DNA of 64,000 nucleotides, taken from the NCBI GenBank assembly GCA_003389385.1, contig QQVM01000004.1, positions 62,001 to 126,000 of the forward strand, read 5' to 3'. This document shows, in pieces, positions 14,926 to 60,928 of the stretch. This stretch comes from Bacteroidota bacterium. Lineage in GTDB: Bacteria > Bacteroidota > Bacteroidia > AKYH767-A > 2013-40CM-41-45. Positions within the stretch are counted from its first letter, which is position 1. Each line of letters begins with the position of its first letter. The notes under the pieces are model-generated. The model was given only the letters and a program-made list of their open reading frames with translations, was not told the origin of the DNA and searched no databases. A program made the position numbers and the translations under genes.

Positions 14926-17900
14926 ATGCACCGATTTATGAATAAAGTATGTTTGGTTTTATTTGCCTCATTTATATGGATGAACGCATCCAGAGCCCAG
15001 GAGACATTTCCTGAGAACGGTACGAGTGATCCCAGGAATGCAGTTTATGCACTGGTCAATGCCAAAGTTTTTGCAGATGCATCTTTGAGCATTGATTCAG
15101 CTGTATTACTGATCAGTAAAGGAAAAATTCTGGACGTAGGAAAAAACATTTCCATTCCTGGTCATGCTCTCATGATAGATATGGGTGGCAGACATATTTA
15201 TCCGTCATTCATTGATTTGTTTTCAGAATATGGATTACCGGAAATTAAGAAGGAGCACCGTCATGATGCCGGTCCTCAGTTTCTCAGTTCTGTCAAAGGA
15301 GCTTATGGTTGGAATCAGGCAGTTCGTCCGGAATATAATGCGCACAAGCATTTTTCTGTAGACGAGAAAAAGGCAGAAGAGCTTCGCAAGTTAGGTTTTG
15401 GTGCAGTGATGAGCATAAACCGCGACGGCATCGTGCGCGGAACTTCGGTTCTCGTCTGTCTTGGAAATGATAGGGAACATGAAATGATAATCCGGGACCG
15501 AGCCGCTGCAAACTATTCTTTTCACAAAGGTACGTCCACTCAGGATTATCCCTCGAGTCTGATGGGAAGCATTGCATTGCTTCGTCAGACTTACTACGAT
15601 GCGTTGTGGTATAAGAATGGAGGCTATCGGAAAGAATACAATATTTCGCTTGATGAATTCAATAAAATTCAAAACCTGCCTCAGATGTTTGAAGCAGGTG
15701 ACAGGCAGAATATTCTGAGAGCTTCCAGAATTGCCGGTGAGTTTGGAGTTAAATATATTATCAAGGGTGCAGGAGACGAGTACCGTCGTGCGGATGAGTT
15801 AAAAGATTCCGGACTTGAATTAGTGATACCTTTAAATTTTCCTGAAGCATTTGATCTTTCGGATCCTTACGACGCGCTCAATGTAAGTCTTGAGCAAATG
15901 TTGCATTGGGAACATGCTCCAGCGAATGCTTCACGCATTGAAAAAAGTGGAATTCGATTTGCTTTCACTCTTTCAGATTTGAAGAATAAATCCGACTTCA
16001 TGAAAAACCTTCGCAAAGCAATTGAGGCAGGCTTGAGTGAACAAATGGCATTGGCCGCATTGACTGAAGTTCCTGCTTCAATGATTGGTGCACAGAATGA
16101 AATAGGACGGCTTCAAAAAGGGATGATTGCCAACTTCATGGTATGCAGCCGTTCCCTGTTTGAAAAAGACAATGTCATTCTTGAAAACTGGGTGAAAGGA
16201 GTGCGTTATAAAATTCATGATACGGACTTGCCTGACATTCGCGGAAATTATTCACTTCGAATCGGCAATGATAGCCTTATCAGGCTCAGAGTAAGCGGTG
16301 AAATCATTGCACCGGAATTCCATTATTTTCAAGATACAAGTTTCAGGAAAATTCAATCATCCATTTCAGGAAAAGTATTGAATCTTGTCATCCAGCGAAA
16401 GGAGCAAAAGCAAGAAAAAAGCATCCGGCTCACCGCTGTGCTTGGAAGCAGTGCAAAACAGGGCCTTTCAGGTGATGCTTTGTTGCCAGAGGGAAAATGG
16501 GTGAAATGGACTGCACAGTTTGATTCTTCTCTCAGTATGATTGCTCCGAAAGATACATCAGCAAAGAGTGTTTCCCGAATTTCTGAGATATCATACCCGA
16601 ATATGTCATATGGTTGGAAAGAAAAGCCGAAGCAGATTGATGTCTTGTTTCGAAACGCCACCGTTTGGACAAACGAAAAGGAGGGAATTCTAGAAAATGC
16701 GGATGTGTATATATCTCAGGGACGAATTGTGCAAGTAGGACAAAATCTGAAAATGCCGGCAGGTGCGACTGTAATCGATGCAAGCGGAAAACATCTGACC
16801 AGCGGAATTATTGATGAGCATTCTCATATTGCTGTCAGTGGATCGGTGAACGAATCCACACAGTCTTCATCAGCCGAAGTGCGCATTGGAGATGTAATCG
16901 ATTCGGATGATATTCAGATTTACAGACAGCTCGCTGGAGGAGTCACCTCTACCCATATACTTCATGGCAGCGCGAATGCTATCGGCGGTCAGACTCAGCT
17001 AATCAAACTGAGATGGGGCCAGTCTGCTGAAAAACTGAAGTTTGAAAATGCGCCGGGTTTCATCAAGTTCGCTTTGGGTGAGAATGTGAAGCAAAGCCAT
17101 TGGGGAGATAAGCAAGTCGTTCGCTTCCCACAGACCCGGATGGGAGTGGAGCAGGTTTATGTGGATTATTTCACCAAAGCCCGAGAATACATTGAGTCTC
17201 AAAAATTGCAGGATAAGAAAGTCAAACACGCTTCACAAGATCCTCTAAGAAAAGATTTGGAGCTGGATGCAATTGCCGAAATCCTCCAGTCGAAAAGATT
17301 TATCACTTGTCACAGTTATGTACAAAGCGAAATCAACATGCTGATGCATGTGGCTGACAACTTTGGCTTTAAAGTAAACACTTTCACACATATACTTGAA
17401 GGATACAAAGTCGCTGACAAAATGAAAAAGCACGGCGTATTGGGAGCATCTTCTTTTTCCGACTGGTGGGCATATAAATTTGAAGTATATGAATCGATAC
17501 CGCACAACGGAGCTATTTTGCACCGAATGGGAGTGAATGTCGCATTCAATTCTGATGATGCTGAGATGGCCAGGCGTTTGAACCAGGAAGCAGCGAAAGC
17601 AATTACTTACGGAGGAATCAGCCGTGAAGAAGCATGGAAATTTGTAACCCTGAACCCTGCAATAATGCTGAGAGTGGATCAGCGGGTTGGAAGTATCAAA
17701 GCCGGCAAGGATGCAGACCTGGTTCTCTGGAGCGATGATCCTCTTTCAGTGTATGCAAGGGCTATTCAGACTTATGTGGATGGCGCTTTATACTACGATG
17801 AAAGCCTGGATCTTCAATTGCGAGGAAACATTGAAAAGGAAAGAGCTCGCCTGACAGCACTCATGCTTGAAGCTAAAACAAAAGGAGAACAGACTCAGAA

Positions 17901-48957: not shown

Positions 48958-49767
48958 GTGAAGAAACAGGAAAGCATATACAAGAAACTTACAGAGGCTG
49001 AACTCGCTGGTAAGAGAGCTGCTTTATGTGTGATCACAGGAGTGAGAGGCAGTACGCCAAGATCAGTGGGCGCCAAGATGATTGTCTACGAGGATGGAAA
49101 CATTTTTGGTAGCGTGGGTGGGGGAGACCTCGAGAAAAGTGTGATTGAAAATGCGCTGAAAGCGATACAAAACTCAAAAGCTGAAACGTTTCGTCATGAT
49201 TTACTTCACCAGCACAGCATGTGCTGTGGTGGCAGCGTGGACATTTTTATTGAACCAATTCAGAGGAAGAATAAACTTTACATTTTCGGGGCCGGACATA
49301 CCGGCCATGCGCTTGCTCAACATGCCGTCCATCTCGATTTTGAAGTGGTACTGATAGATGAACGCCGGGAATATATTGATTCGATTCACATCGAGGACAT
49401 CAATAAACTTCCTCTTCATTACAAAGAAGCCTTAACATTACTTCCCTTTGATCAACATACTTACATCTGTGTGATGACCTACAGTCATCAGCATGACCGG
49501 GACATTCTGGCTTATTGCATTACTAAACCTTGGGCATATCTGGGCATGATCGGCAGTAGGAGAAAAGTGGAATTAACTAAAAAGATGTTTACCGCAGCTG
49601 GAATTGCTGATAAAGAACTACTGGAAAAAGTTGACATGCCTATGGGAATTGAGATTGAAGCTGAAACTCCGCATGAGATTGCCATCAGCATTCTGGCGAA
49701 GTTGGTAAACGTAAAGAGAAATTCAATTTCGAAAAGTCCTGCATCGGCAAGTTCAATTTCCAGTTAA
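48958..49767 (+). CDS. xdhC: XdhC-family xanthine dehydrogenase accessory protein
   Basis: A 269-residue XdhC/CoxI-type protein that helps load sulfurated molybdenum cofactor into xanthine dehydrogenase. The N-terminal part has the conserved GSTPRSVGAKM, VGGGDLE and MCCGGSVDIFIEP segments. The C-terminal Rossmann part begins at about residue 104 with YIFGAGHTGHALA and continues to GMIGSRRKV. The start codon is GTG at 48958; no upstream ATG precedes the conserved domain. It is divergent from guaD, 96 nt apart, and convergent overall with the xdh operon, so it appears to be expressed from a separate transcript from xdhAB. Confidence 0.93.
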   Translation: MKKQESIYKKLTEAELAGKRAALCVITGVRGSTPRSVGAKMIVYEDGNIFGSVGGGDLEKSVIENALKAIQNSKAETFRHDLLHQHSMCCGGSVDIFIEPIQRKNKLYIFGAGHTGHALAQHAVHLDFEVVLIDERREYIDSIHIEDINKLPLHYKEALTLLPFDQHTYICVMTYSHQHDRDILAYCITKPWAYLGMIGSRRKVELTKKMFTAAGIADKELLEKVDMPMGIEIEAETPHEIAISILAKLVNVKRNSISKSPASASSISS

Positions 49768-49834
49768 AGGTTGATTTCATTTTATCAAACCAAAGTTTTA
49801 TTCAGACTCTTTAAATTGTTCTAGTAATTTTTCA

Positions 49835-50713
49835 ATGAGAATATCAACTGTTGTTGTTTTAAGCTTTATCCTGATTCATACTTCTGCCTTTGCACAGGAT
49901 CTGATTGTCAATTCAGCAGGAGATTCCTTGAATTGTAAAATAATAAGAATAAAAGACAAGCATATATTTTTTTCTTTCAGTAGCAATAATGAAGTGAAGC
50001 AGGGCATCATCCAGCTTCAGCAGGTTCGTTATTATCAGGAAGGTTTTTATCCGAATTCTGAAATTATATTCAGCAGACCATTCCTCGGTGAAAGTAATTA
50101 CAAATTTAGAATAGGTGCTTACGGAGGCTGGAGTTATCTCCTGGCAAGAATCAATGAGAATATCAATTCAGATTTGCTGTCATATATGAAGGATTTGAAA
50201 TCCGGTTATCACTATGGAGCGGATTTTACAGTATTTAAATCTGAGAACATTGGTTTCGGTGGAAAATATTCCATGTTCCGTACAAGCAATCAGCTGGAAA
50301 ACGTATATGTGGTAAGCACTACAAACGGACAAATTCGAACTGGAATTCTCAGAGACGATATACGCATTCAGTATTTCGGACCTGCAATATGTACAAGGCT
50401 CAATACTTCAAATCCGAATGCCAATGTCTTGCTTGATTTCTCATTGGGCTATATGACATACAAAAATAATGCGACATTAATTGAAGATTTTACTTTGCAG
50501 AGTGATGCATTGGGACTGATGTGGAATGTGGGAATTGATAAGCCCATAGATGAAAACCTGGTTTTAGGAATTTTTCTTGCTTTTAAATTCGGAGCTTTGC
50601 GGTATTACGATTATCAGGATCAAAATCAAATCAGGAGAATTGAACTTGATGAAGATAATTATGAAAATATAACAAGGATTGATTTGTCAATTGGTTTGAG
50701 GTGGAGGAAATGA
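49835..50713 (+). CDS. Exported beta-barrel protein, unknown
   Basis: A 292-residue exported protein. A signal peptide ends near SAFAQ. It then opens with a small beta domain (DLIVNSAGDSLNCKIIRI...), common in Bacteroidota outer-membrane proteins, followed by an alternating strand pattern and a terminal barrel-like strand, DLSIGLRWRK. I do not know its substrate. Its stop TGA overlaps the next gene's ATG by the ATGA pattern, and the next gene encodes a T9SS tail-like domain. It lies between xdhC and the purine operon but shows no sign of being a transporter. Confidence 0.75.
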   Translation: MRISTVVVLSFILIHTSAFAQDLIVNSAGDSLNCKIIRIKDKHIFFSFSSNNEVKQGIIQLQQVRYYQEGFYPNSEIIFSRPFLGESNYKFRIGAYGGWSYLLARINENINSDLLSYMKDLKSGYHYGADFTVFKSENIGFGGKYSMFRTSNQLENVYVVSTTNGQIRTGILRDDIRIQYFGPAICTRLNTSNPNANVLLDFSLGYMTYKNNATLIEDFTLQSDALGLMWNVGIDKPIDENLVLGIFLAFKFGALRYYDYQDQNQIRRIELDEDNYENITRIDLSIGLRWRK

Positions 50714-50958
50714 TAGTTGAAGATCCTTCAAATGGATTTACAAGCATTGATGTGATTTCAAGGAATGCAAGTACTATCGAGCTTCGAATCTGCGATATGC
50801 CTGGCAGAGAAATTTATTCCGAACGAAAAGCCAACACACATAGTGATAAATTTACATTTCACCTGGACACACGATCATGGAGTCCGGGAATTTATATATA
50901 CACGCTTGAGTCGAAAGGAAAGAAAATAAGCAGGCAACTCATGGTTGCCAATGATTAA
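50710..50958 (+). CDS. Free-standing T9SS type A sorting-domain-like protein
   Basis: An 82-residue product with no signal peptide that looks like an isolated type IX sorting domain. It starts IVEDPSNGFTSIDV (compare the usual IYPNPxxG start), then ELRICDMPGREIY, a strand pair and a closing VAND. The ATG overlaps the upstream stop in an ATGA junction. A GTG three codons earlier is possible, and a GGAGGAA run immediately upstream (50703-50709) is a strong ribosome binding site. Sorting domains normally sit at the end of a secreted protein, so a free-standing one should not be exported by itself. Decay, a frameshift or real separate translation are all possible. Confidence 0.65.
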   Translation: MIVEDPSNGFTSIDVISRNASTIELRICDMPGREIYSERKANTHSDKFTFHLDTRSWSPGIYIYTLESKGKKISRQLMVAND

Positions 50959-50981
50959 AATTATTCAAGAGCGGAATAATT
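50959..50981. repeat. Inverted repeat between the tail gene and the CitE-like gene
   Basis: AATTATTC and GAATAATT flank a 7-nt loop between convergent genes. It lacks a GC-rich stem and T tract, so it is at best a weak terminator. Confidence 0.35.
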
Positions 50982-50990
50982 GCCAGGTTA

Positions 50991-52427
50991 TCACACCTTC
51001 ACTCCACGTCTTCCCTGAAGAATCCTGTAGAAAGATCTGGAGCGTATCTCTTCAATGCTTAATCCTGTTACCAGGGCTTCTTCTTCTGTGATGGCGCCGG
51101 AGTTCAAGGCGCGAAGGAAATAATTCAAAAGTCCCTGGCCAGTGGCGGCATCATCAAATATGTCTCCTGATAAAGTCGCTTGCGCTGCTTTTTCTACAAA
51201 GTGTTTCAGACGGACTGCGGCATCTTCGTAACTCTCCAAAAAGAAATTATAAACAGCCGCATAACGCATTGGAAGTTGGGCAGGGTTGAGATCCCATCCC
51301 TGGTAAAGCCCGTTGCGAAGTGAATGTGTACTATGTCCGTAGCATAGTTTCCATGCACGGTGAACAACGGCGGTGTTCTCCTTAATTTGTTCCGGACTTA
51401 GATTATCTCCTTTGTGCGGACCAATTGGCATTACATTGGTTGCTCCGTCAGATAAAAATATTCCTGTTCCGCCCAGTGCTACTTTAGTCATGTGATGAGC
51501 AAAGTCGCAAACCGGATGATCCATTGTCTGATACTTGGCTGTGATATTCGCGGATGCGGTATAGTCGTAAGTGCCGAAGTGAGCTGCAATGCAACGACCT
51601 TTTCCGGCCATGATAAGACGACGCAATGGATTTCTTCCCTCGGAATCCATGACAGCCTGAGTGGCTTCCACCATCATTTCCAGTTTTAAAGAACCGGATT
51701 CCATTTTGAATGCATCTTCAATGATCTCGAAAAATTTCACCAGCGCTTCGATCTGTTCAGGAATGGTGACTTTGGGAAGCATCACGATGAAATTATCCGG
51801 CAGTTTCCCTCTGGTTTCGCTGAGCAGAGTGCTCAGGAATATATCAAGCGTTCTCAGTCCTCTGTGTTTGAGGTCTTCTGTAAATGGTTTTATTCTGATG
51901 CCGATGAATGGTGATACCGTTTTTTCCTTCATGGCTCGTGCCAGTTCCATTGCAGCATTCACAGCAGTAGAATCCTCTTCTTCGTCAGGCCTGTTGCCAA
52001 AACCATCCTCAAAGTCAATGCGGAAATCTTCCACCGGCTCACGCTGTAACTTTGCAACAATTTTTTCATAAACGGTAAAAGCAAGCCATGCCGGATCTTT
52101 CTTACGTGCTGCCGGACTCATTTTTTCTAGCTTGGTCTTCAGCGAGTCTATTTCAGACTGCACTGTCGGAAGAGATTCATGTCCCTGCAGCTCCAGCACT
52201 CTTGCAAGCACAGTGAAATCAGGAGCATAAGTGCGAAGACTTCTCAATGCGATCTCACCCATCTTGGAGGCAGAATCGTATTTGTAAAGATTAGCTCCTC
52301 CATACACAGTGTGCACAGCCTGCCTGTCGGGTTTGTCACCCGGATAGATTTTTTGAAAAGCGAGATTTGCGTTTCGCAATTCGCTGAATATTTTTTCTCC
52401 TGCAGATTGAGTGATTACAGTTTTCAT
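50991..52427 (-). CDS. CitE/malate-synthase-like TIM-barrel protein (DUF6986-like), last gene of the purine operon
   Basis: A 478-residue soluble protein I place in the HpcH/CitE/malate-synthase-like superfamily, probably DUF6986 (recalled, not checked). Motifs in order: RIDFEDG at 136-142, RIKPF at 178-182, MLPK at 216-219, LEMMVE at 249-254 and AAHFGTYDYTAS at 281-292. These sit on successive barrel strands and provide the acidic Mg-binding and Arg/Lys substrate residues seen in citramalate, malyl or CoA-ester lyases. It follows uraH by 21 nt and ends the operon. Enzymes of this fold handle glyoxylate, the expected C2 end product of ureidoglycolate breakdown. A role in that last step is inference. 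Confidence 0.78.
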   Translation of the reverse strand: MKTVITQSAGEKIFSELRNANLAFQKIYPGDKPDRQAVHTVYGGANLYKYDSASKMGEIALRSLRTYAPDFTVLARVLELQGHESLPTVQSEIDSLKTKLEKMSPAARKKDPAWLAFTVYEKIVAKLQREPVEDFRIDFEDGFGNRPDEEEDSTAVNAAMELARAMKEKTVSPFIGIRIKPFTEDLKHRGLRTLDIFLSTLLSETRGKLPDNFIVMLPKVTIPEQIEALVKFFEIIEDAFKMESGSLKLEMMVEATQAVMDSEGRNPLRRLIMAGKGRCIAAHFGTYDYTASANITAKYQTMDHPVCDFAHHMTKVALGGTGIFLSDGATNVMPIGPHKGDNLSPEQIKENTAVVHRAWKLCYGHSTHSLRNGLYQGWDLNPAQLPMRYAAVYNFFLESYEDAAVRLKHFVEKAAQATLSGDIFDDAATGQGLLNYFLRALNSGAITEEEALVTGLSIEEIRSRSFYRILQGRRGVKV

Positions 52428-52448
52428 CTTTCAATTTCTATTATTCAT

Positions 52449-52787
52449 TCAACTCCCCCGGTAAGTGGAATAACCAAAAGGATTCAACAGCAATGGCACA
52501 TGGTAATGCTCGGTTCCGCTGATTTCAAATGTGATTTCTATATATGGATAAAATGTCTTTATGTTTTTGCTCTTGTAATAATCTCCGGTTTCAAAACGCA
52601 GACGATATATTCCTGATTCCAATGTTTTATTACTTACCAGATCACTGATTCTTCCGTCTTTGTTTGTGATTCCCTTGGCGACAAATTCAAAACTATTTTG
52701 CAGATTGAGTTTTTCCAGGTAGGTATTGACCCCTTCTGCCGGTTTTCCGACTGAAGTGTCAAGTATATGAGTGGTGATTTGGCTCAT
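52449..52787 (-). CDS. uraH: 5-Hydroxyisourate hydrolase
   Basis: A 112-residue transthyretin-like hydrolase that converts 5-hydroxyisourate to OHCU. The N-terminus has THILDTSVGKPAEGV, with the conserved first His, and the C-terminus ends in the family signature YRGS. A second conserved His is in HYHVPLLL. The length is standard. Its ATG overlaps the uraD stop by 4 nt (ATGA), so it is translationally coupled. Confidence 0.96.
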   Translation of the reverse strand: MSQITTHILDTSVGKPAEGVNTYLEKLNLQNSFEFVAKGITNKDGRISDLVSNKTLESGIYRLRFETGDYYKSKNIKTFYPYIEITFEISGTEHYHVPLLLNPFGYSTYRGS

Positions 52788-53287
52788 GCGAACATTTTTG
52801 TAATTCTCAGTCGTGTGATTTTGTGTTGCTCAGCAGCGGCAATTCTTATTTCACTGTAACGGTCATTGTTCATTCTTTCATTGAGTATACCCAACATTTC
52901 TTCGGCCCTCTTTCCGCTTGCGTAAACTATGAAAATAAATCCAAATTTTTCTTCGTAATCCCTGTTTCCCTCTGCCAGCGCCTGTAAAATCTTCATGTCC
53001 GCGTTTTTTACTCCGGATTGCTCATCACCGGCCATGTTCGAAGTGGATGCGAACTTTTTAGCAAGACTCTCAATGTCTCCGATTTTCGGATGATGATGAA
53101 ATGATTCCAGCCAATCTTCTTCGTTCGTCTGTTCCCAGCATTTGTCTGCTATTTCAAGCATCTGATCAAGTCCATTGAAGGGACGGCTTGACAACATGCA
53201 ATTTACCCAATTGCGTGAGCCGCAGCATCTGGAAAGTTCTTCCCTGATCTGCTCTTCGTTCTTGCTGTTGAATTCAGAAATATCCAT
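52784..53287 (-). CDS. uraD: OHCU decarboxylase
   Basis: A 167-residue enzyme that decarboxylates 2-oxo-4-hydroxy-4-carboxy-5-ureidoimidazoline to (S)-allantoin. The catalytic His lies in HHHPKIGD near residue 68, and the substrate loop KYNSDG-like segment is replaced by EEKFGFIFIVYASG, as in many bacterial members. I start at ATG 53287, because the longer reading overlaps the allantoicase gene; from 53287 there is a 1-nt gap to that gene's stop. Overlap with uraH (ATGA) is at the other end. Confidence 0.94.
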   Translation of the reverse strand: MDISEFNSKNEEQIREELSRCCGSRNWVNCMLSSRPFNGLDQMLEIADKCWEQTNEEDWLESFHHHPKIGDIESLAKKFASTSNMAGDEQSGVKNADMKILQALAEGNRDYEEKFGFIFIVYASGKRAEEMLGILNERMNNDRYSEIRIAAAEQHKITRLRITKMFA

Positions 53288-53288
53288 G

Positions 53289-54308
53289 TTAAACTTTATT
53301 CCCCCAAAGCCGGAGTCTGCTGACACCACCGTCAGGGAAAATATTCAGACGCACATGACTCAGCGCATCATGCTTCATTATTTCATTTTCAAAATAATGT
53401 TCATGATCCGCCTGCAGTTTCTGACGGTCGAGAATCGGAAACCATTTTATGGACGGATCATCAGGATTAAACGCATTGTCATTATTGACCAATGTTCCTT
53501 CTATGCTGCATGTGTCAGGGTAGTTTCCCTTAAAGTGACAGGTATCAACCAATATTTTTTGGATACGTCCTTTGTGTCCAAGTCGAATAATAACCCAGTC
53601 ACGGTTTCCAGGGGTACGGTTTCTCTTCGTTTCCCATCCGTCGCCCATATTCACACCTCTTCCGGGCATGAGCAGGTTATCCATATGTGAAAAGAACATG
53701 TCATTGCATAATACTGCTTTAGCACCGTTGAGTGCCGAAGCCAGATCAATGACTTCATCATTTTTTACTTTACTCCAGTCTTTGAAAACTTCACCGTACA
53801 CTTTTAGTCTGGCGACACCTCCATCAGGATAAATATTTAATCTCAAGTGGGTGTACACATTTTCAGAGCTGCAGGGATAAAAATTTTGTGAGCCTGGATT
53901 TAAAGGTGATTTGGCCAGAATTTCTGTCCATTTGATTTCAGAAGAAGTCAGAGTTTTTACATCAGGATCACCTTCCAGATTAACAGCTTCTATGGAGGCG
54001 AAGGGAGGGTGATTTCCCAGAAAATGATTCGTGTCAATGTCAAAACCGTGAATACGTCCTGGCGCACCGAGTTTCAGTATACACCAGTCGTGACCAGGTA
54101 CTCTTTTACGCCTCGATTCCCAGCCATCCATCCACTTGCCGCGGTCTGTATATTTATCCGCGATAAAAATCCCTCGCCCTGGTTTTACAAGATTTTCCAT
54201 CTCAGCGAAAAAATCATCGCTGCAGGCAAGCGCTCTTGCTCCGAGTTTTTCAGCCGCAAGATTGAGCTTACTTGTGTAAGCGGGGCTCTCTTTCACTGTT
54301 TCAGTCAT
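53289..54308 (-). CDS. alc: Allantoicase
   Basis: A 339-residue hydrolase converting allantoate to ureidoglycolate and urea. The chain holds two allantoicase repeats. In the first, GWESRRKRVPGHDW leads to DIDTNHFLGN; in the second, GWETKRNRTPGNRDW leads to DTCHFKGN. The length is normal for the eukaryote-like allantoicase. Its start overlaps the allB stop by 8 nt and its stop is 1 nt from uraD, so it is firmly inside the operon. Confidence 0.96.
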   Translation of the reverse strand: MTETVKESPAYTSKLNLAAEKLGARALACSDDFFAEMENLVKPGRGIFIADKYTDRGKWMDGWESRRKRVPGHDWCILKLGAPGRIHGFDIDTNHFLGNHPPFASIEAVNLEGDPDVKTLTSSEIKWTEILAKSPLNPGSQNFYPCSSENVYTHLRLNIYPDGGVARLKVYGEVFKDWSKVKNDEVIDLASALNGAKAVLCNDMFFSHMDNLLMPGRGVNMGDGWETKRNRTPGNRDWVIIRLGHKGRIQKILVDTCHFKGNYPDTCSIEGTLVNNDNAFNPDDPSIKWFPILDRQKLQADHEHYFENEIMKHDALSHVRLNIFPDGGVSRLRLWGNKV

Positions 54309-55656
54309 TGTTTCTCAATAGAATTTTTCCGGGGGGCGAAGATACAAATGAACCTTTGTCATAGACAAGTGCTCCGCCAACATAAGTTTTTTCCACCAGT
54401 CCGGACAGCAACAGACCCTCATATGGACTCACCGGGTGCTTGTATTTAATGAGTGGTTTTGTCACCTTCATTTTTTTGTGTGGGTTCCATATCACAAGAT
54501 CAGCGTCATTGCCAACTTTGATTTCGCCTTTTTGGTGCAATCCAAGAAATTCCGCTACTCCCCGGCTCATCCATTGATTGATATCCTTCACATATTTATT
54601 GTTTTTCTCAGCCAGGCTCCACATAATCGGAAGCGAGAATTGTATCGATGCGATCCCTCCCCAGGCATCCAGAAGATTTCCAGTGAATAGTTCTTTCATT
54701 TCGGGAGGCGCAGGACTGTGATCAGTCACTACGAAATCAATTAGTCCTTCTGCAAGCGCATTCCACAATTTTTCATTGTTTTCTTTTTCTCGAATGGGCG
54801 GTGCACACTTGAATCGTGTATCTGCATCAGGAATTTCTTCCGCATTGAAATACAGATAATGCGGACAGGTTTCAACGCTCAAAGGCAATCCCTTAGCTTT
54901 AGCTTCGCTGATCATCTGCAATGCATTTGATGAGGAAAGATGCACGATGTGCGAACGGACTTTGTGTTTTTCACAAAGCTGAATGATGGCTTCAATGGCT
55001 TTATCTTCCCAGCTGGCAGGACGTGAATGAAGATAAGCGAGGTAGGAATGAGGATTCTTTCTTAATTCTTGAATGCCTGGTCCGGGTACATCTAACTCTG
55101 CATGTACCAGCAATGGAATGTCAAGCTTTGACAGGAGAGAGGCGATTTTCTCCAGGTGTTTCAGAGTCGTGTTTGGAAACTCATCAATACCGGAATGAGT
55201 GAGAAAAACTTTGAAACCAAAAACTCCATCTTTAGCAAGAGGCTCAAGTTCTTTCTCATTGTCTGGAACAATGCCTCCCCAGAATCCGCAATTGACAAAA
55301 AGTTTTCCAGCAGAGGCTTCTAACTTTGCTTTCAAATTTTTCGTACTTGTTGTAACCGGACTGGAATTCAGCGGCATATCTATAAGTGTCGTCACTCCGC
55401 CGGCTGCCGCGGCTTTGGTGGCAGTTTCGAATCCTTCCCAGTCAGTCCGGCCCGGTTCATTAATGTGAACATGGCAGTCGATCAGACCGGGCATCAGAAC
55501 GGATTCTCCGGCAGACTCGATTTTCTTTGCCATCTCCTTACCTGCTTTACCTTCTACAATACCGCTGATCTTTCCTTCGGAAATCAGTACGCTTACATCA
55601 CTCAATCCTTCGGGAAGCAATGTTTTTTTGCAATAGATGGCAAGATCGGCAGTCAT
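54301..55656 (-). CDS. allB: Allantoinase
   Basis: A 451-residue cyclic amidohydrolase that opens allantoin to allantoate. The binuclear metal site includes HVH (His62, His64), the carboxylated Lys149 in GFKVFLTHSG, His185 in VHAELD, another His in IVHLSS near residue 240, and Asp in VTDHSPAP near 313. These match the allantoinase/dihydropyrimidinase subfamily, and the neighbours decide for allantoinase. It is preceded by puuD (110-nt gap, the largest in the operon) and overlaps alc by 8 nt. Confidence 0.95.
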   Translation of the reverse strand: MTADLAIYCKKTLLPEGLSDVSVLISEGKISGIVEGKAGKEMAKKIESAGESVLMPGLIDCHVHINEPGRTDWEGFETATKAAAAGGVTTLIDMPLNSSPVTTSTKNLKAKLEASAGKLFVNCGFWGGIVPDNEKELEPLAKDGVFGFKVFLTHSGIDEFPNTTLKHLEKIASLLSKLDIPLLVHAELDVPGPGIQELRKNPHSYLAYLHSRPASWEDKAIEAIIQLCEKHKVRSHIVHLSSSNALQMISEAKAKGLPLSVETCPHYLYFNAEEIPDADTRFKCAPPIREKENNEKLWNALAEGLIDFVVTDHSPAPPEMKELFTGNLLDAWGGIASIQFSLPIMWSLAEKNNKYVKDINQWMSRGVAEFLGLHQKGEIKVGNDADLVIWNPHKKMKVTKPLIKYKHPVSPYEGLLLSGLVEKTYVGGALVYDKGSFVSSPPGKILLRNND

Positions 55657-55766
55657 ACGCTCAGTAACTGTTTTATATCAACATGCTCTGAATTCTCAGA
55701 GTCCTTAATTGTCCGAAGATCTGAATAAATTATATTCCTGAGTAGAGAAAAATTCCCAAAGAACAT

Positions 55767-57095
55767 TTACTGGTTAAGCACAGAGCCCTGGCTGATCCAA
55801 CGACCCAGCAATTCCCTTTCCTCTTCGGTGATTTCAGTTTTATTTCCCTGAGGCATCGTTTTGGTCTGGACTACTCTCACCATTATTCTATCTGCCATGT
55901 TCCTGATCTGATCCGGACTTTCAAGAATGACTCCGCCTGCAGCTGTAGCATGTTCCGGATCGCTTGGTTTTTGTGCATGGCAACTCTGGCAGCGCTTTTG
56001 GATTACCGCGCTGACTTCAGTGAATGATGCAGGTTCACCTCCTATTTCTGTCTTCTTCGGAGCGGTTACAATGACAAGTGATATGAGAGCGATAAAACTG
56101 AATGGCAGAATCCAGAATGCGTTTCTTCCTTTTTCATATAAGTTGATATAATGTCTTACAGCTACACTTGCCAGAGTGAGTCCGGCAAGTACCGCCCAAT
56201 TGAAAGCATTACCATAGGTTGTAGGAAAATGTCCGCTGATCATGATGAAGATCACCGGAAGCGTGATGTAATTGTTGTGAAGAGATCTGAGGCCGGCGGT
56301 TTTTCCCAGTGTCGGATCAAGAGGCAGCCCGAGCTTTGCTGCTTTTACCAGGGCCTTCTGCGAGGGAATAATGGTAAAGAATACATTGCCGGCCATGATT
56401 GTTCCGAGCAAGGCGCCAACATGCATGAAAGCTGCCCTTCCGCTGAGGAATTGGGAAAGGAAAAAAGATATAAGGATTACAATTGAGAATCCTGTGAGGG
56501 CGAAGGTTTTTTTCTTTTCGAGCAATTTTGTCTTGCATAGAAAGTCATAACAAAACCATCCTGCTACAAGGGTCCCGACACTCAAAAGAATTGCATTTAA
56601 AGGAGAGATGTCTGAAACGGCAGGATCCACAAGCACGGATTTGGCGTTTATATAATATACCAATACCAACAGGATGCACCCCGTCAACCATGTGAAATAA
56701 GCTTCATACTTAAACCAGTGCAGGTGTTGCGGAATTTTTTCCGGAGCCACTTTGTATTTTTCTACATAGTAAAATCCGCCGCCGTGTATCGCCCAAAGAT
56801 TTCCTGCAAGTTCATCACGAAGATTTTCTGTGCGGTTCAGACTGTTTTCTAAAAAAATGAAATAGAACGATGCTCCTATCCAACTGATACCTAAAATTAC
56901 GTGAGCCCAGCGGAAAACAAGATTCATCCATTCCAGAACATGAGCTTCAGTTCCTGAGAAAGTTGCTGCAATGTAAATTCCATATCCAAGCACAATTAGT
57001 ACAGCAAGCCAAATAGTGACTTTCCTGTACATTGTGATCTGATCCAAAGATTCTCTCAGGTGTTCTAATTCCTGTTGCTCCTTCTTTTCCTGCAT
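55767..57095 (-). CDS. puuD: Urate oxidase, membrane cytochrome c type (PuuD)
   Basis: A 442-residue membrane protein of the PuuD type, which oxidises urate to 5-hydroxyisourate and delivers electrons to a respiratory chain instead of oxygen directly. About eight or nine hydrophobic helices form the urate-oxidising domain in the first 330 residues. The C-terminal periplasmic cytochrome c has the haem motif CQSCH (369-373) and an axial Met at TKTMPQG (Met414). The usual soluble uricase is absent from the window, so this is probably the urate oxidase of the pathway. Xanthine dehydrogenase lies 39 nt upstream. Confidence 0.92.
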   Translation of the reverse strand: MQEKKEQQELEHLRESLDQITMYRKVTIWLAVLIVLGYGIYIAATFSGTEAHVLEWMNLVFRWAHVILGISWIGASFYFIFLENSLNRTENLRDELAGNLWAIHGGGFYYVEKYKVAPEKIPQHLHWFKYEAYFTWLTGCILLVLVYYINAKSVLVDPAVSDISPLNAILLSVGTLVAGWFCYDFLCKTKLLEKKKTFALTGFSIVILISFFLSQFLSGRAAFMHVGALLGTIMAGNVFFTIIPSQKALVKAAKLGLPLDPTLGKTAGLRSLHNNYITLPVIFIMISGHFPTTYGNAFNWAVLAGLTLASVAVRHYINLYEKGRNAFWILPFSFIALISLVIVTAPKKTEIGGEPASFTEVSAVIQKRCQSCHAQKPSDPEHATAAGGVILESPDQIRNMADRIMVRVVQTKTMPQGNKTEITEEERELLGRWISQGSVLNQ

Positions 57096-57134
57096 GTATT
57101 ATTTACTCCGATTTTAATGAAAGCTACTCCATTA

Positions 57135-59468
57135 CTAATTGGCTTTTTCAATTTTCATCCTTTGCTTAATATCTTCTACTGATAGAAGGATCAATTCATT
57201 TGTAGCCGGAAGTTTAAACATCGGCTCCAGTTTATGATCGGCAACAGATGAAATTGCATCCTTAATTGCAAGCCATGTGCTCATTGCAAGCATGAAGGGT
57301 GGCTCTGCTACAGCCTTGCTTTTGCGTATGGCATTAGGATTCGGAACGTTTTTCAGCAGACTTACACGAAAGTCTTCGGGCATGTCTGTCACAGCCGGGA
57401 TTTTGTATGTATCAGGTGAATGATTCAACAGGTTTCCCGCTTTGTCGTGTTTCACTTCTTCTGTCGTGACCCAGCCAAGTCCTTGAATGAAGCCCCCTTC
57501 AATTTGTCCAATGTCTATACCTTCATTGATTGTGTCACCTACATCGTGCAGTATGTCAGTTCGCAGATGTTTTACATAACCTGTCAGAGTATCCACCAGA
57601 ACTTCACTTACAGCCATTCCGAATGCAAAATAATTGAATGGTTTTCCCCAGCCTTTAACTTTATCCCATCCGATATTAGGCGTTTTATAGAATCCGGTTG
57701 CGCTTAAACTTACCTGGTTCAAATGTGCAAGTACACATGCTTCGTCGAGTGATATCTTTCTGTCAGGATACAAACTATCAATAATGCTGTTATTTTGAAA
57801 GAGGATATGTTCAACATTTGTGATCTTTTCCGGCCTCTTTTTATTAAACTCATCCACCATCAAAATTGCCAGTCTTCTTTTGATTTTTTCAATCGCGTCT
57901 TTGACAGCCATTCCGTTGAGATCTGTTCCGGCTGATGCTGCTGTGGCTGATGTGTTCGGAACTTTTGAGGTATTGGTGGCATTCACTTTCACTTTGTCAA
58001 GCGTTACTCCCATTTCAGCAGCTGCAATTTGGGCGATCTTGGTATGTAGTCCCTGGCCCATCTCTGTGCCTCCGTGATTCACCAGCAATGTTCCGTCTTT
58101 ATACAAATTCACCAGTGCGCCAGCCTGGTTCAGGAATGATGTTGTAAAAGATATTCCGAACTTCACAGGTGTCATCGCCATTCCTTTTTTAACATAAGGT
58201 GATGTTTGATTGAAGCGGTTTATTTCCTTCCTCCTCTGATCATAATCTGATGACTTTTTAATTTGATCGTATATAAGGTCCAATCGGTTCAATTCGACCT
58301 TTTGTCCGTAGTGTGTGACATTGTTGCTCTCATGTTTGTAAAAATTAAGCTTCCGGATTTTTTCAGAATCAGTTTTAAGTTGTCGCGCAATCCGATCCAT
58401 GATTTGCTCAATACCGGCCATTCCCTGTGGTCCGCCGAATCCCCTGAAAGCTGTATTAGACGGTAGGTTTGTACGGTATGCCTTGCCCCTGACAAGCATG
58501 TGTGGAATAAAATAACAATTGTCTGCATGTAACATAGCTCGCTCAAGAATAGCCATGCTGAGATCTGTTGCGCATCCTGCATCTGTATGCTGGTCGACAA
58601 TTAATGCATGAATTTTTCCTTCATGATCAAATCCAGCTTCATATTGAATTATGAAAGGATGTCTCTTTCCCGTAATTTTTTGATCATCATCCCTGAAAAG
58701 ACGGATTTTTACAGGCCTTCCAGTTTTATATGCAAGTAGTGCCGTCCATGCCGCTGTATGATTGGCTTGTGTTTCTTTTCCTCCGAAAGCTCCACCCATA
58801 CGTCTTGTCTCCACTACGATTTCATTTTTCGGAAGTCCGAGCACTTCGGCAACTATTGCCTGAGTTTCGGAAGGATGTTGGGTGGATGAAAATACATTCA
58901 TCTCATTCCCTTCTCCCGGGATACAAAGACAACTTTGAGTTTCCAGATACCAATGTTCCTGAGCGCCGGTTTCTATTTCGCCGACGATTCTGTGTTTGCA
59001 GCTTAAGAGCTCTTGTTCAGGATCGCCTCGTTTCATTGTTCTTTCAGGAGCCAATAGAAGATTGCGGCTGATGGCACTGCGTAAATCTGTGACTGCTTCA
59101 AGAACTTCGTATTGTATCCTTATAAGTTTTTCTGCTTCAATAGCCGCACTTTCTGTTTCGGCTGCGATGAGGACAATGGCTTGTCCGACACATATCACTT
59201 CAGATTCCGCAAGGCAGGGTTCATCGTGCACTACAGGACCCATCTGATTTTGTCCGGGAATATCTTTCCAGCTGAGGATAGCATGAACCCCTGCAATTTT
59301 CTTCGCTTCCGCTGTATCTATTTTAAGGATTTTAGCATGTGCATGTTTGCTGTATACCACCCGTCCATGCAGAATTGTAGACGGCATTGGAATGTCATCA
59401 ATGTACACCGATTTGCCGCTCACATGTTTCGCGGCGCTGTCATGCGGTATATTTAGTTTCATGTTCAT
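57135..59468 (-). CDS. xdhB: Xanthine dehydrogenase, molybdopterin-binding subunit
   Basis: A 777-residue large subunit that oxidises hypoxanthine and xanthine to urate. Its molybdenum cofactor site shows GGAFGGKE, FRGFGGPQG (substrate Arg) and QGLHTKIAQ. The catalytic Glu722 lies in AEPPFMLA, where the usual GEPP has become AEPP but the Glu is kept. The length is standard for a three-subunit-type enzyme. The start overlaps the xdhA stop by ATGA; another ATG at 59462 is possible. puuD is 39 nt downstream. Confidence 0.95.
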   Translation of the reverse strand: MNMKLNIPHDSAAKHVSGKSVYIDDIPMPSTILHGRVVYSKHAHAKILKIDTAEAKKIAGVHAILSWKDIPGQNQMGPVVHDEPCLAESEVICVGQAIVLIAAETESAAIEAEKLIRIQYEVLEAVTDLRSAISRNLLLAPERTMKRGDPEQELLSCKHRIVGEIETGAQEHWYLETQSCLCIPGEGNEMNVFSSTQHPSETQAIVAEVLGLPKNEIVVETRRMGGAFGGKETQANHTAAWTALLAYKTGRPVKIRLFRDDDQKITGKRHPFIIQYEAGFDHEGKIHALIVDQHTDAGCATDLSMAILERAMLHADNCYFIPHMLVRGKAYRTNLPSNTAFRGFGGPQGMAGIEQIMDRIARQLKTDSEKIRKLNFYKHESNNVTHYGQKVELNRLDLIYDQIKKSSDYDQRRKEINRFNQTSPYVKKGMAMTPVKFGISFTTSFLNQAGALVNLYKDGTLLVNHGGTEMGQGLHTKIAQIAAAEMGVTLDKVKVNATNTSKVPNTSATAASAGTDLNGMAVKDAIEKIKRRLAILMVDEFNKKRPEKITNVEHILFQNNSIIDSLYPDRKISLDEACVLAHLNQVSLSATGFYKTPNIGWDKVKGWGKPFNYFAFGMAVSEVLVDTLTGYVKHLRTDILHDVGDTINEGIDIGQIEGGFIQGLGWVTTEEVKHDKAGNLLNHSPDTYKIPAVTDMPEDFRVSLLKNVPNPNAIRKSKAVAEPPFMLAMSTWLAIKDAISSVADHKLEPMFKLPATNELILLSVEDIKQRMKIEKAN

Positions 59469-60928
59469 TGTCCTGACTTTGTTTTTAACTCTTCAGAATG
59501 AAAATGAAATTTTGTCAGCAAATTTCTTGCAGCAAGACGGCGAAATTCATCACCGGATCTTGCGTCAGAAATAGGTGTGAAGAAACTGTAAACTAATTCA
59601 CCTGCCTGTTCCGCATTGGAAGCTGTCCATTCCTTGCCTTGCAGAAATTCTTCAGCCGCAGCCGCTCGCATGGTTTTAGCTGCCATCCCTCCAAATGCAA
59701 GTATCGCACTTGAAATAAAACCATTTTCAATTTTCAAATTGAATCCTGCATTTACGGTCGCTATATCGAGATCTTTTCTTTTGGAGACTTTGTGTGACCA
59801 GATGATTTCATTTTTACCGGGGATTGGTATCCTTACTCCTGAAATGATTTCATCAGGCCTGATGACAGTCTTTCTGTATGAAACTATAAATTCATTCATT
59901 GAAACTTCTCTCTTTCCGGATAAACTTTCCAGAATCACACTAGCATTATAAGCCATTAGGACAGGCAGGGTGTCTCCGATTGGAGATGCTGAACCCAGAT
60001 TGCCGCCAAGAGTTGCCAGCATACGAATTTGCCTGGAGCCAAATACGGAAAGAATATCATACAAGGCCGGAAGTTTTTCCTTTATACCTACTCTAAGGTC
60101 CTCAAGGTTTAGTCCTGAGCCAATTTTTATTTCAGCAGATGATATGCTGAGTTCCTTCAATTCCTTAATTGCAGACAAATCCAGAATGGAACTCAATAGT
60201 TCATGCTTTTTTGTTACTCTTAATGCTGTGTCTGTCGCGCTTGATATAATGATGCCCTCCTGATTATCTGCTCTCCACTTTAAGGCATCCTGTATATTAT
60301 TGGGTTGAAAATATCTTTGTGAAGATGTCTCTATGATGACATCAGGATGCTCAGCGCGAAGAGCTAGGAGCATTTGAGACATATCTTTTTCAGATTCACT
60401 GAAATGATCTTTCCCTTTCTGAACACATGCCTTTGCTGCAGCTTCAACGATGGGTCTGTAACCTGTGCAACGACATAAGTTTCCGGTTAGGGAATCCTTT
60501 ATTTCTGCTGTATCTGGATTGTTGCAATTTTTGTAAAGCCCAAAGAGTGACATTACAATTCCGGGAGTACAGTATCCACACTGACTTCCATTCTCTTCCA
60601 CCATGCTCTTCTGAATAGGATGCATTTCGCCGTCTTCCAAATGTTCCACAGTGATGATCTGTTTGCCATGCATCATTGGAAGAAAAACCAGGCAGGAATC
60701 TATTGCAGAATATTTCAATCGTCCATCATGAGTTTCTGCCATGACCACAGTGCATGCCCCACAGTCCCCTTCAGCGCATCCTTCCTTTGTTCCTGTCATG
60801 CATTCAGTTTCACGCAGGTAACGTAACAAGGTAGTTGTGGGTGAAAGATTTTTGCCGTCAATTGTGATGGTTTTTTTCTCTTTACCCAGCAGAAAGCTGA
60901 TTTTGTCCGTCTTCGAGTTTGCTGACAT
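59465..60928 (-). CDS. xdhA: Xanthine dehydrogenase, FAD and iron-sulfur subunit
   Basis: A 487-residue small subunit that passes electrons from the molybdenum site through two [2Fe-2S] clusters to FAD and NAD. The first cluster ligands are Cys51, Cys56, Cys59 and Cys79 (GCAEGDCGACT), the second Cys117, Cys120, Cys152 and Cys154 (QCGYC and LCRCTGYRP). The FAD domain occupies about residues 205-370, with TLGGNLGSASPIGD as a signature, and is followed by the CO-dehydrogenase flavoprotein C-terminal domain. It is the first gene of the purine operon. The 172-nt gap upstream should carry the promoter; the minus strand contains TAATTTAG, one mismatch from the -7 consensus. Confidence 0.95.
   Translation of the reverse strand: MSANSKTDKISFLLGKEKKTITIDGKNLSPTTTLLRYLRETECMTGTKEGCAEGDCGACTVVMAETHDGRLKYSAIDSCLVFLPMMHGKQIITVEHLEDGEMHPIQKSMVEENGSQCGYCTPGIVMSLFGLYKNCNNPDTAEIKDSLTGNLCRCTGYRPIVEAAAKACVQKGKDHFSESEKDMSQMLLALRAEHPDVIIETSSQRYFQPNNIQDALKWRADNQEGIIISSATDTALRVTKKHELLSSILDLSAIKELKELSISSAEIKIGSGLNLEDLRVGIKEKLPALYDILSVFGSRQIRMLATLGGNLGSASPIGDTLPVLMAYNASVILESLSGKREVSMNEFIVSYRKTVIRPDEIISGVRIPIPGKNEIIWSHKVSKRKDLDIATVNAGFNLKIENGFISSAILAFGGMAAKTMRAAAAEEFLQGKEWTASNAEQAGELVYSFFTPISDARSGDEFRRLAARNLLTKFHFHSEELKTKSGQ

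Follow-up and report, generated by a model that had tools for sequence, protein, structure and literature searches.

A lone type A sorting domain overlapping the end of an outer-membrane barrel gene in a Bacteroidota genome is a probable 3' remnant of a lost type IX secretion cargo gene

In this work, we are presenting an analysis of an open reading frame (ORF) of 82 codons from a Bacteroidota bacterium, which encodes a genuine type A sorting domain of the type IX secretion system (T9SS). It was found in a window of 64,000 nucleotides, by which we mean the whole stretch of DNA that was analysed, belonging to a 3.36-Mb genome of 24 contigs. The ORF is probably all that remains, at the 3' end, of a T9SS cargo gene that has been lost. 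Such an orphaned remnant of another gene is the reading that fits best, and it was absent from an earlier description of this DNA (the original prediction), whose observation was partly confirmed and whose interpretation was partly supported. The features concerned are as follows.

49835..50713, + strand: exported outer-membrane beta-barrel gene, 292 aa, complete (AlphaFold, Foldseek, family C-terminus)
50703..50709, + strand: GGAGGAA word within the last codons of the barrel gene (sequence)
50710..50713, + strand: ATGA in which the barrel stop and the tail start overlap, -1 frame (sequence)
50713..50724, + strand: probable join, degenerate motif A with IVED in place of YPN before P (tail comparison)
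50710..50958, + strand: lone type A T9SS sorting domain ORF, 82 codons (PF18962, TIGR04183, model)

Both genes are flanked by xdhC and a convergent DUF6986 gene, in a part of the window (48958-60928) which we take to be a purine catabolism cluster, presumably made up of XdhC-like, DUF6986, hydroxyisourate hydrolase-like, OHCU decarboxylase-like, allantoicase-like and allantoinase-like genes and a large xanthine dehydrogenase-like pair.

The tail product matched Pfam PF18962 with 33.9 bits (cut-off 27) and NCBIfam TIGR04183 with 32.9 bits (cut-off 23), in both cases over residues 6-79, while the score against the type B family CHU_C was 20.3 bits, under its cut-off of 27. The type A assignment of the original prediction is thus upheld by two profiles above their curated cut-offs. 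Its description of the domain as complete goes slightly too far: the profile match begins at position 5, and VEDP takes the place of PNP, the motif-A word of 64 of the 65 other tails compared. According to the review PMC10202324, motif A is possibly dispensable for secretion. By its profile score the tail is therefore filed as a degenerate member of the type A sorting domains. The AlphaFold model, built on a seven-row alignment, shows six strands in a beta-sandwich (pLDDT 85). Foldseek placed it near the T9SS C-terminal domains (CTDs) 8qb1_A (TMq 0.71) and 8glk_D (TMt 0.77) with E-values of only about 0.01-0.04; no hit reached E <= 0.001, generic Ig-like folds ranked equal to or above the T9SS CTDs, and the tail sequence gave no match to PDB chains. 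In its profile match and Ig-like beta-sandwich the tail resembles PF18962/TIGR04183 domains such as those of mirolase (8qb1) and the NucA substrate (8glk chain D). It differs from them in standing alone, without signal peptide, cargo or linker, and in its degenerate motif A.

The reading frame of the tail is intact. It starts with ATG at 50710 and ends with the stop codon at 50956-50958; translation could alternatively begin with GTG at 50701, giving 85 aa. Upstream, the frame closes at about 50683, which falls within the last strand of the barrel, so that no linker or cargo is concealed there; the domain fills the whole ORF and no cargo precedes it. By eye, the product has no hydrophobic N-terminus that could serve as a signal peptide, since it begins with MIVEDPSNG (or MEEMIVEDP). 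It therefore has neither the N-terminal Sec signal peptide nor the folded cargo of a T9SS substrate; the review PMC10202324 states that all T9SS effectors carry a signal peptide. The 82-residue length, the lack of signal peptide and cargo and the ATGA overlap of 4 bases had all been described correctly, whereas the feature start given at 50695 falls within the barrel gene. Codon usage of the tail is normal for the genome (47th percentile of 332 gene segments). The profile scores, together with coding statistics that at this locus are positive in the tail frame only, exclude a chance origin of the domain.

The upstream gene ends where its family ends. In the AlphaFold model of the barrel (pLDDT 85.9), a signal helix precedes a small N-terminal domain and eight long strands, of which the final one comprises residues 281-291 of 292, and Foldseek related it to OmpA, OmpW and NspA. 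A scan of genome contigs yielded 30 barrel relatives with 27-43% identity; loci L144, L151 and L152 among them apparently come from the same genomes as L068, L071 and L069, and locus L067 (G003) was left out of the locus analysis. All 30 stop within 0-10 codons of the match end and share the C-terminal motif, which is DLSIGLRWRK in the window and typically DLSIGLRFNK. With the same C-terminus across relatives, the stop at 50711 is the normal family end. No tail is fused to the barrel in any of the 30, and the 11 aligned relatives agree. Pfam PF13505 matched 15 of the 20 family members scanned (20 of the 31 sequences to hand), the window protein having no Pfam match of its own; PF11751 (PorP/SprF) matched none of the 20 at E <= 0.01, and one further relative gave a sub-threshold match (E 0.07). 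The window protein is thus predicted to be a complete OmpA/OmpW-like 8-strand barrel and not a T9SS cargo, which bears out the earlier remark that it would be an odd one.

As for the start of the tail, the GGAGGAA word pointed out as a strong signal is indeed present, but it does not count as one in this phylum. It is the codon sequence of the barrel gene (AGG TGG AGG AAA), and Shine-Dalgarno (SD)-like words precede 6 of the 52 window genes (11.5%; gene set defined by longest ORF) compared with 11.4% of 5000 random positions. PMC6728339 reports that Bacteroidetes use SD sequences neither for initiation nor for reinitiation, and PMC9976891 that Bacteroidia ribosomes fail to recognise them, the 16S tail being sequestered. 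An SD-driven start of the tail was consequently rejected, on the random SD frequency in the window and on PMC6728339 as cited. Judging by gene arrangement, the tail may possibly be started by coupling through the overlap itself; among co-directional gene pairs in the window there are three other 4-base overlaps.

The same observations bear on two ways in which barrel and tail could belong to one protein. The original prediction had offered a frameshift splitting a longer secreted protein, and had named a fused frame in close relatives as the thing to look for. Such a frameshift within a single barrel-plus-tail protein could be genuine or result from misassembly. The two frames do overlap in register -1, and one base change could join them. 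Against this, all 30 relatives compared end at the barrel without a fused frame, the last strand reaches residue 291 and leaves no linker space before the tail, and the tail frame is open only as far back as that strand. We regard such a split as highly improbable, and it was discarded on the relatives and the barrel structure. Programmed frameshifting or stop read-through, giving some barrel-tail fusion, was considered because an SD-like word stands shortly before the stop and the stop is TGA. Here, however, no slippery heptamer was seen by eye at the junction (TGG AGG AAA TGA), RNA folding is ordinary (z -0.36) and offers no stimulator structure, SD pairing is blocked in Bacteroidia (PMC9976891), and in the 30 relatives no tail is fused or found directly behind the barrel in another frame, except for the separate gene of L152. 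With no conserved fusion (0 of 30), a programmed frameshift gene was rejected, and we consider this reading extremely improbable.

The surroundings of the two genes were compared with those in relatives. The xdhC-DUF6986 junction was readable in four of them (G001, the only same-genus genome compared, G006, G009 and G010), with spacings of 163, 390, 747 and below 0 bases, respectively, and both barrel and tail are absent there. The two flanking genes are on separate contigs in G003 and apart from each other in G007, and the remaining genomes are without one or both. No full-length barrel was found in the other 41 genomes of the order, and some barrel match occurs in 28 of 395 genomes of the class, own genome included. 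Since the block is absent in near relatives and the order has no full-length barrel elsewhere, barrel plus tail form a lineage-specific island. No conserved barrel-plus-tail pair turned up in the relatives search (61 genomes), the class (395) or the order (42), which are overlapping sets, or in the contig scan, and a plasmid search gave no match. At L069 (the same as L152), a separate T9SS gene of 154 aa lies about 20 bases downstream of a family barrel; its product has a hydrophobic, signal-peptide-like N-terminus, and its tail has no special likeness to that of the window. By analogy, a neighbour of this type trimmed to its tail would yield the window arrangement. With our own-built tail profile (E <= 0.01), T9SS tails were found in the flanks of 5 of the 30 barrel loci, one of them weak, and given the density of tails, T9SS genes beside this barrel family appear unremarkable.

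That density is high in the own genome, which has SprA and at least 150 T9SS tails over the cut-off (150 of 215 candidates scored), so that stray tails are to be expected. Among the 150 scored, the window tail ranks 148th by E-value and has the shortest open frame, 91 codons from stop to stop. The next-shortest, 112, is at C15:15299 (around 15299-15517), where a tail is severed from its cargo by one in-frame stop, either a pseudogene or a sequencing error. The shortest tail frame of G001 (102, among 150 scored), at C6:155510, lies in a small repeated element, in a copy that carries a frameshift. In G004, with 150 candidates scored, a 101-codon tail-only frame (C2:453055-453282, 65.9 bits) separates two T9SS cargo genes, each of 437 aa, in tandem. 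It is in frame with the first gene, beyond whose stop it lies, and overlaps the start of the second; from this layout it appears to be a scar between them. Tail-only frames thus occur now and then where tails are so common. The window tail resembles these three remnants as a tail-only frame without a signal peptide (101-112 aa in theirs), but their lost cargo or tandem copy is still visible upstream, and at the window tail it is gone. Across the 395 genomes, where no more than 14 candidates per genome were scored, the tails most like that of the window include no other frame shorter than 120 codons, and the one of 120 codons has a hydrophobic, signal-peptide-like start.

Two small tail-bearing architectures were observed in the course of these comparisons, all signal-peptide judgements being made by eye. 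A locus in G254 (C28, reverse complement 1156-1518) encodes a nearly cargo-less secreted sorting domain of 118 aa from its ATG, in which a linker of about 20 residues connects a hydrophobic, signal-peptide-like N-terminus to a type A tail. The small element of G001 occurs at C6:155510, C50:510, C3:223546 and C8:152032 and carries a type A tail behind the words CPLSGGKAVYRARAMYSIIDPEKTYDN. Upstream DNA is near-identical in the first three copies and more distant in the fourth; the element has no clear in-frame signal peptide, and the copy at C6:155510 is frameshifted.

The nearest tail in the own genome, C5:101093, belongs to a 672-aa cargo with sub-threshold BNR matches and is 40% identical to the window tail, with identities of 60/67/29% by codon position. 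These figures indicate that the lineage leading to the window tail was long under selection as a tail, which does not show anything about selection after it was stranded. A recent copy of another own-genome tail was rejected on the same values, any copy being old. In the tail tree the window tail was placed without support and was not joined to C5:101093.

Taken as a remnant, the arrangement could have come about as follows. A barrel gene with a T9SS cargo gene behind it would have been assembled between xdhC and DUF6986, or have arrived there as such. A deletion or recombination, an event that we infer, would then have removed the signal peptide and body of the cargo and joined the barrel stop almost directly to motif A. 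The tail frame would have remained open, with ATGA by chance offering a start that ribosomes ending the barrel may reuse. The peptide, if made, would lack a signal peptide, reach neither the periplasm nor the T9SS, and be a small folded or degraded by-product in the cytoplasm; most likely it has no function and no export role. We counted for this reading the complete barrel, the lack of fusion in relatives, the absence of the block, the tail-only remnants elsewhere, the alteration of motif A exactly at the joint and the separate T9SS gene just downstream of the family barrel in L069. Against it stand the 4-base overlaps, also an arrangement of ordinary coupled genes in this genome, the search for a donor cargo, in which the nearest tail, the above-mentioned C5:101093, was only 40% identical, and the lack of a breakpoint signature at the locus. 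The neutral chance of the frame staying open, ignoring indels, is 0.54, 0.29 and 0.12 at 0.05, 0.1 and 0.2 substitutions per site, respectively. From these values, the intact frame and the normal codon usage it follows that a pure remnant must be fairly recent; the frame is presumably still open owing to a recent loss or to chance.

The intact frame, the normal codon usage and the confident CTD-like fold would also suit a real coupled small gene, the tail being made by termination-reinitiation as a functional peptide, cytoplasmic or barrel-associated, such as a binding partner or decoy. Its ATGA junction resembles other operon junctions of the genome, and known systems include pairs of a type B tail and an adjacent PorP/SprF barrel (PMC12618676 and PMC10202324). 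The SprB-SprF pairs likewise join a barrel gene to a sorting-domain gene, but in the window the domain is type A, the barrel is OmpA/OmpW-like, the gene order is reversed and there is no cargo. Moreover, the tail lacks the signal peptide that all known T9SS effectors have (PMC10202324), the pair was in no other genome searched and motif A is altered, which makes this explanation unlikely. Support for a cytoplasmic function extends as far as the open frame, the fold and the overlap, and a functional cytoplasmic tail peptide is unlikely; that a coupled free sorting-domain peptide is kept by selection there, titrating a pre-export recogniser of sorting domains or joining the barrel, we hold to be very unlikely. 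A young gene under exaptation, in which the stranded domain is retained for some other reason, is quite unlikely too. One such reason might be a 3' terminator for the convergent DUF6986/purine operon: the minus strand carries a terminator-like hairpin with a T-rich tail at 50949-50933, and the DUF6986 gene ends 42 bases ahead of it. With two sites of this kind detected against 0.6 +/- 0.8 in shuffles, chance is possible, and the hairpin would account for the last 6 codons only.

In a literature search for stand-alone or orphan CTDs we found no paper on a lone sorting domain without a signal peptide, which does not prove its absence from print. In PMC12618676, "orphan CTD" denotes a substrate without an adjacent shuttle gene, and in PMC4804311 "standalone CTD" is a recombinant domain for structure work. 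If functional, the window tail would contradict the rule by which sorting domains work solely as the tails of Sec-exported cargo. If it is a remnant, it would mainly mean that wherever a genome has 150 or more tails, tail-only frames arise easily, and that scraps of this kind will be counted among the secreted proteins when annotated automatically as "T9SS type A sorting domain-containing protein".
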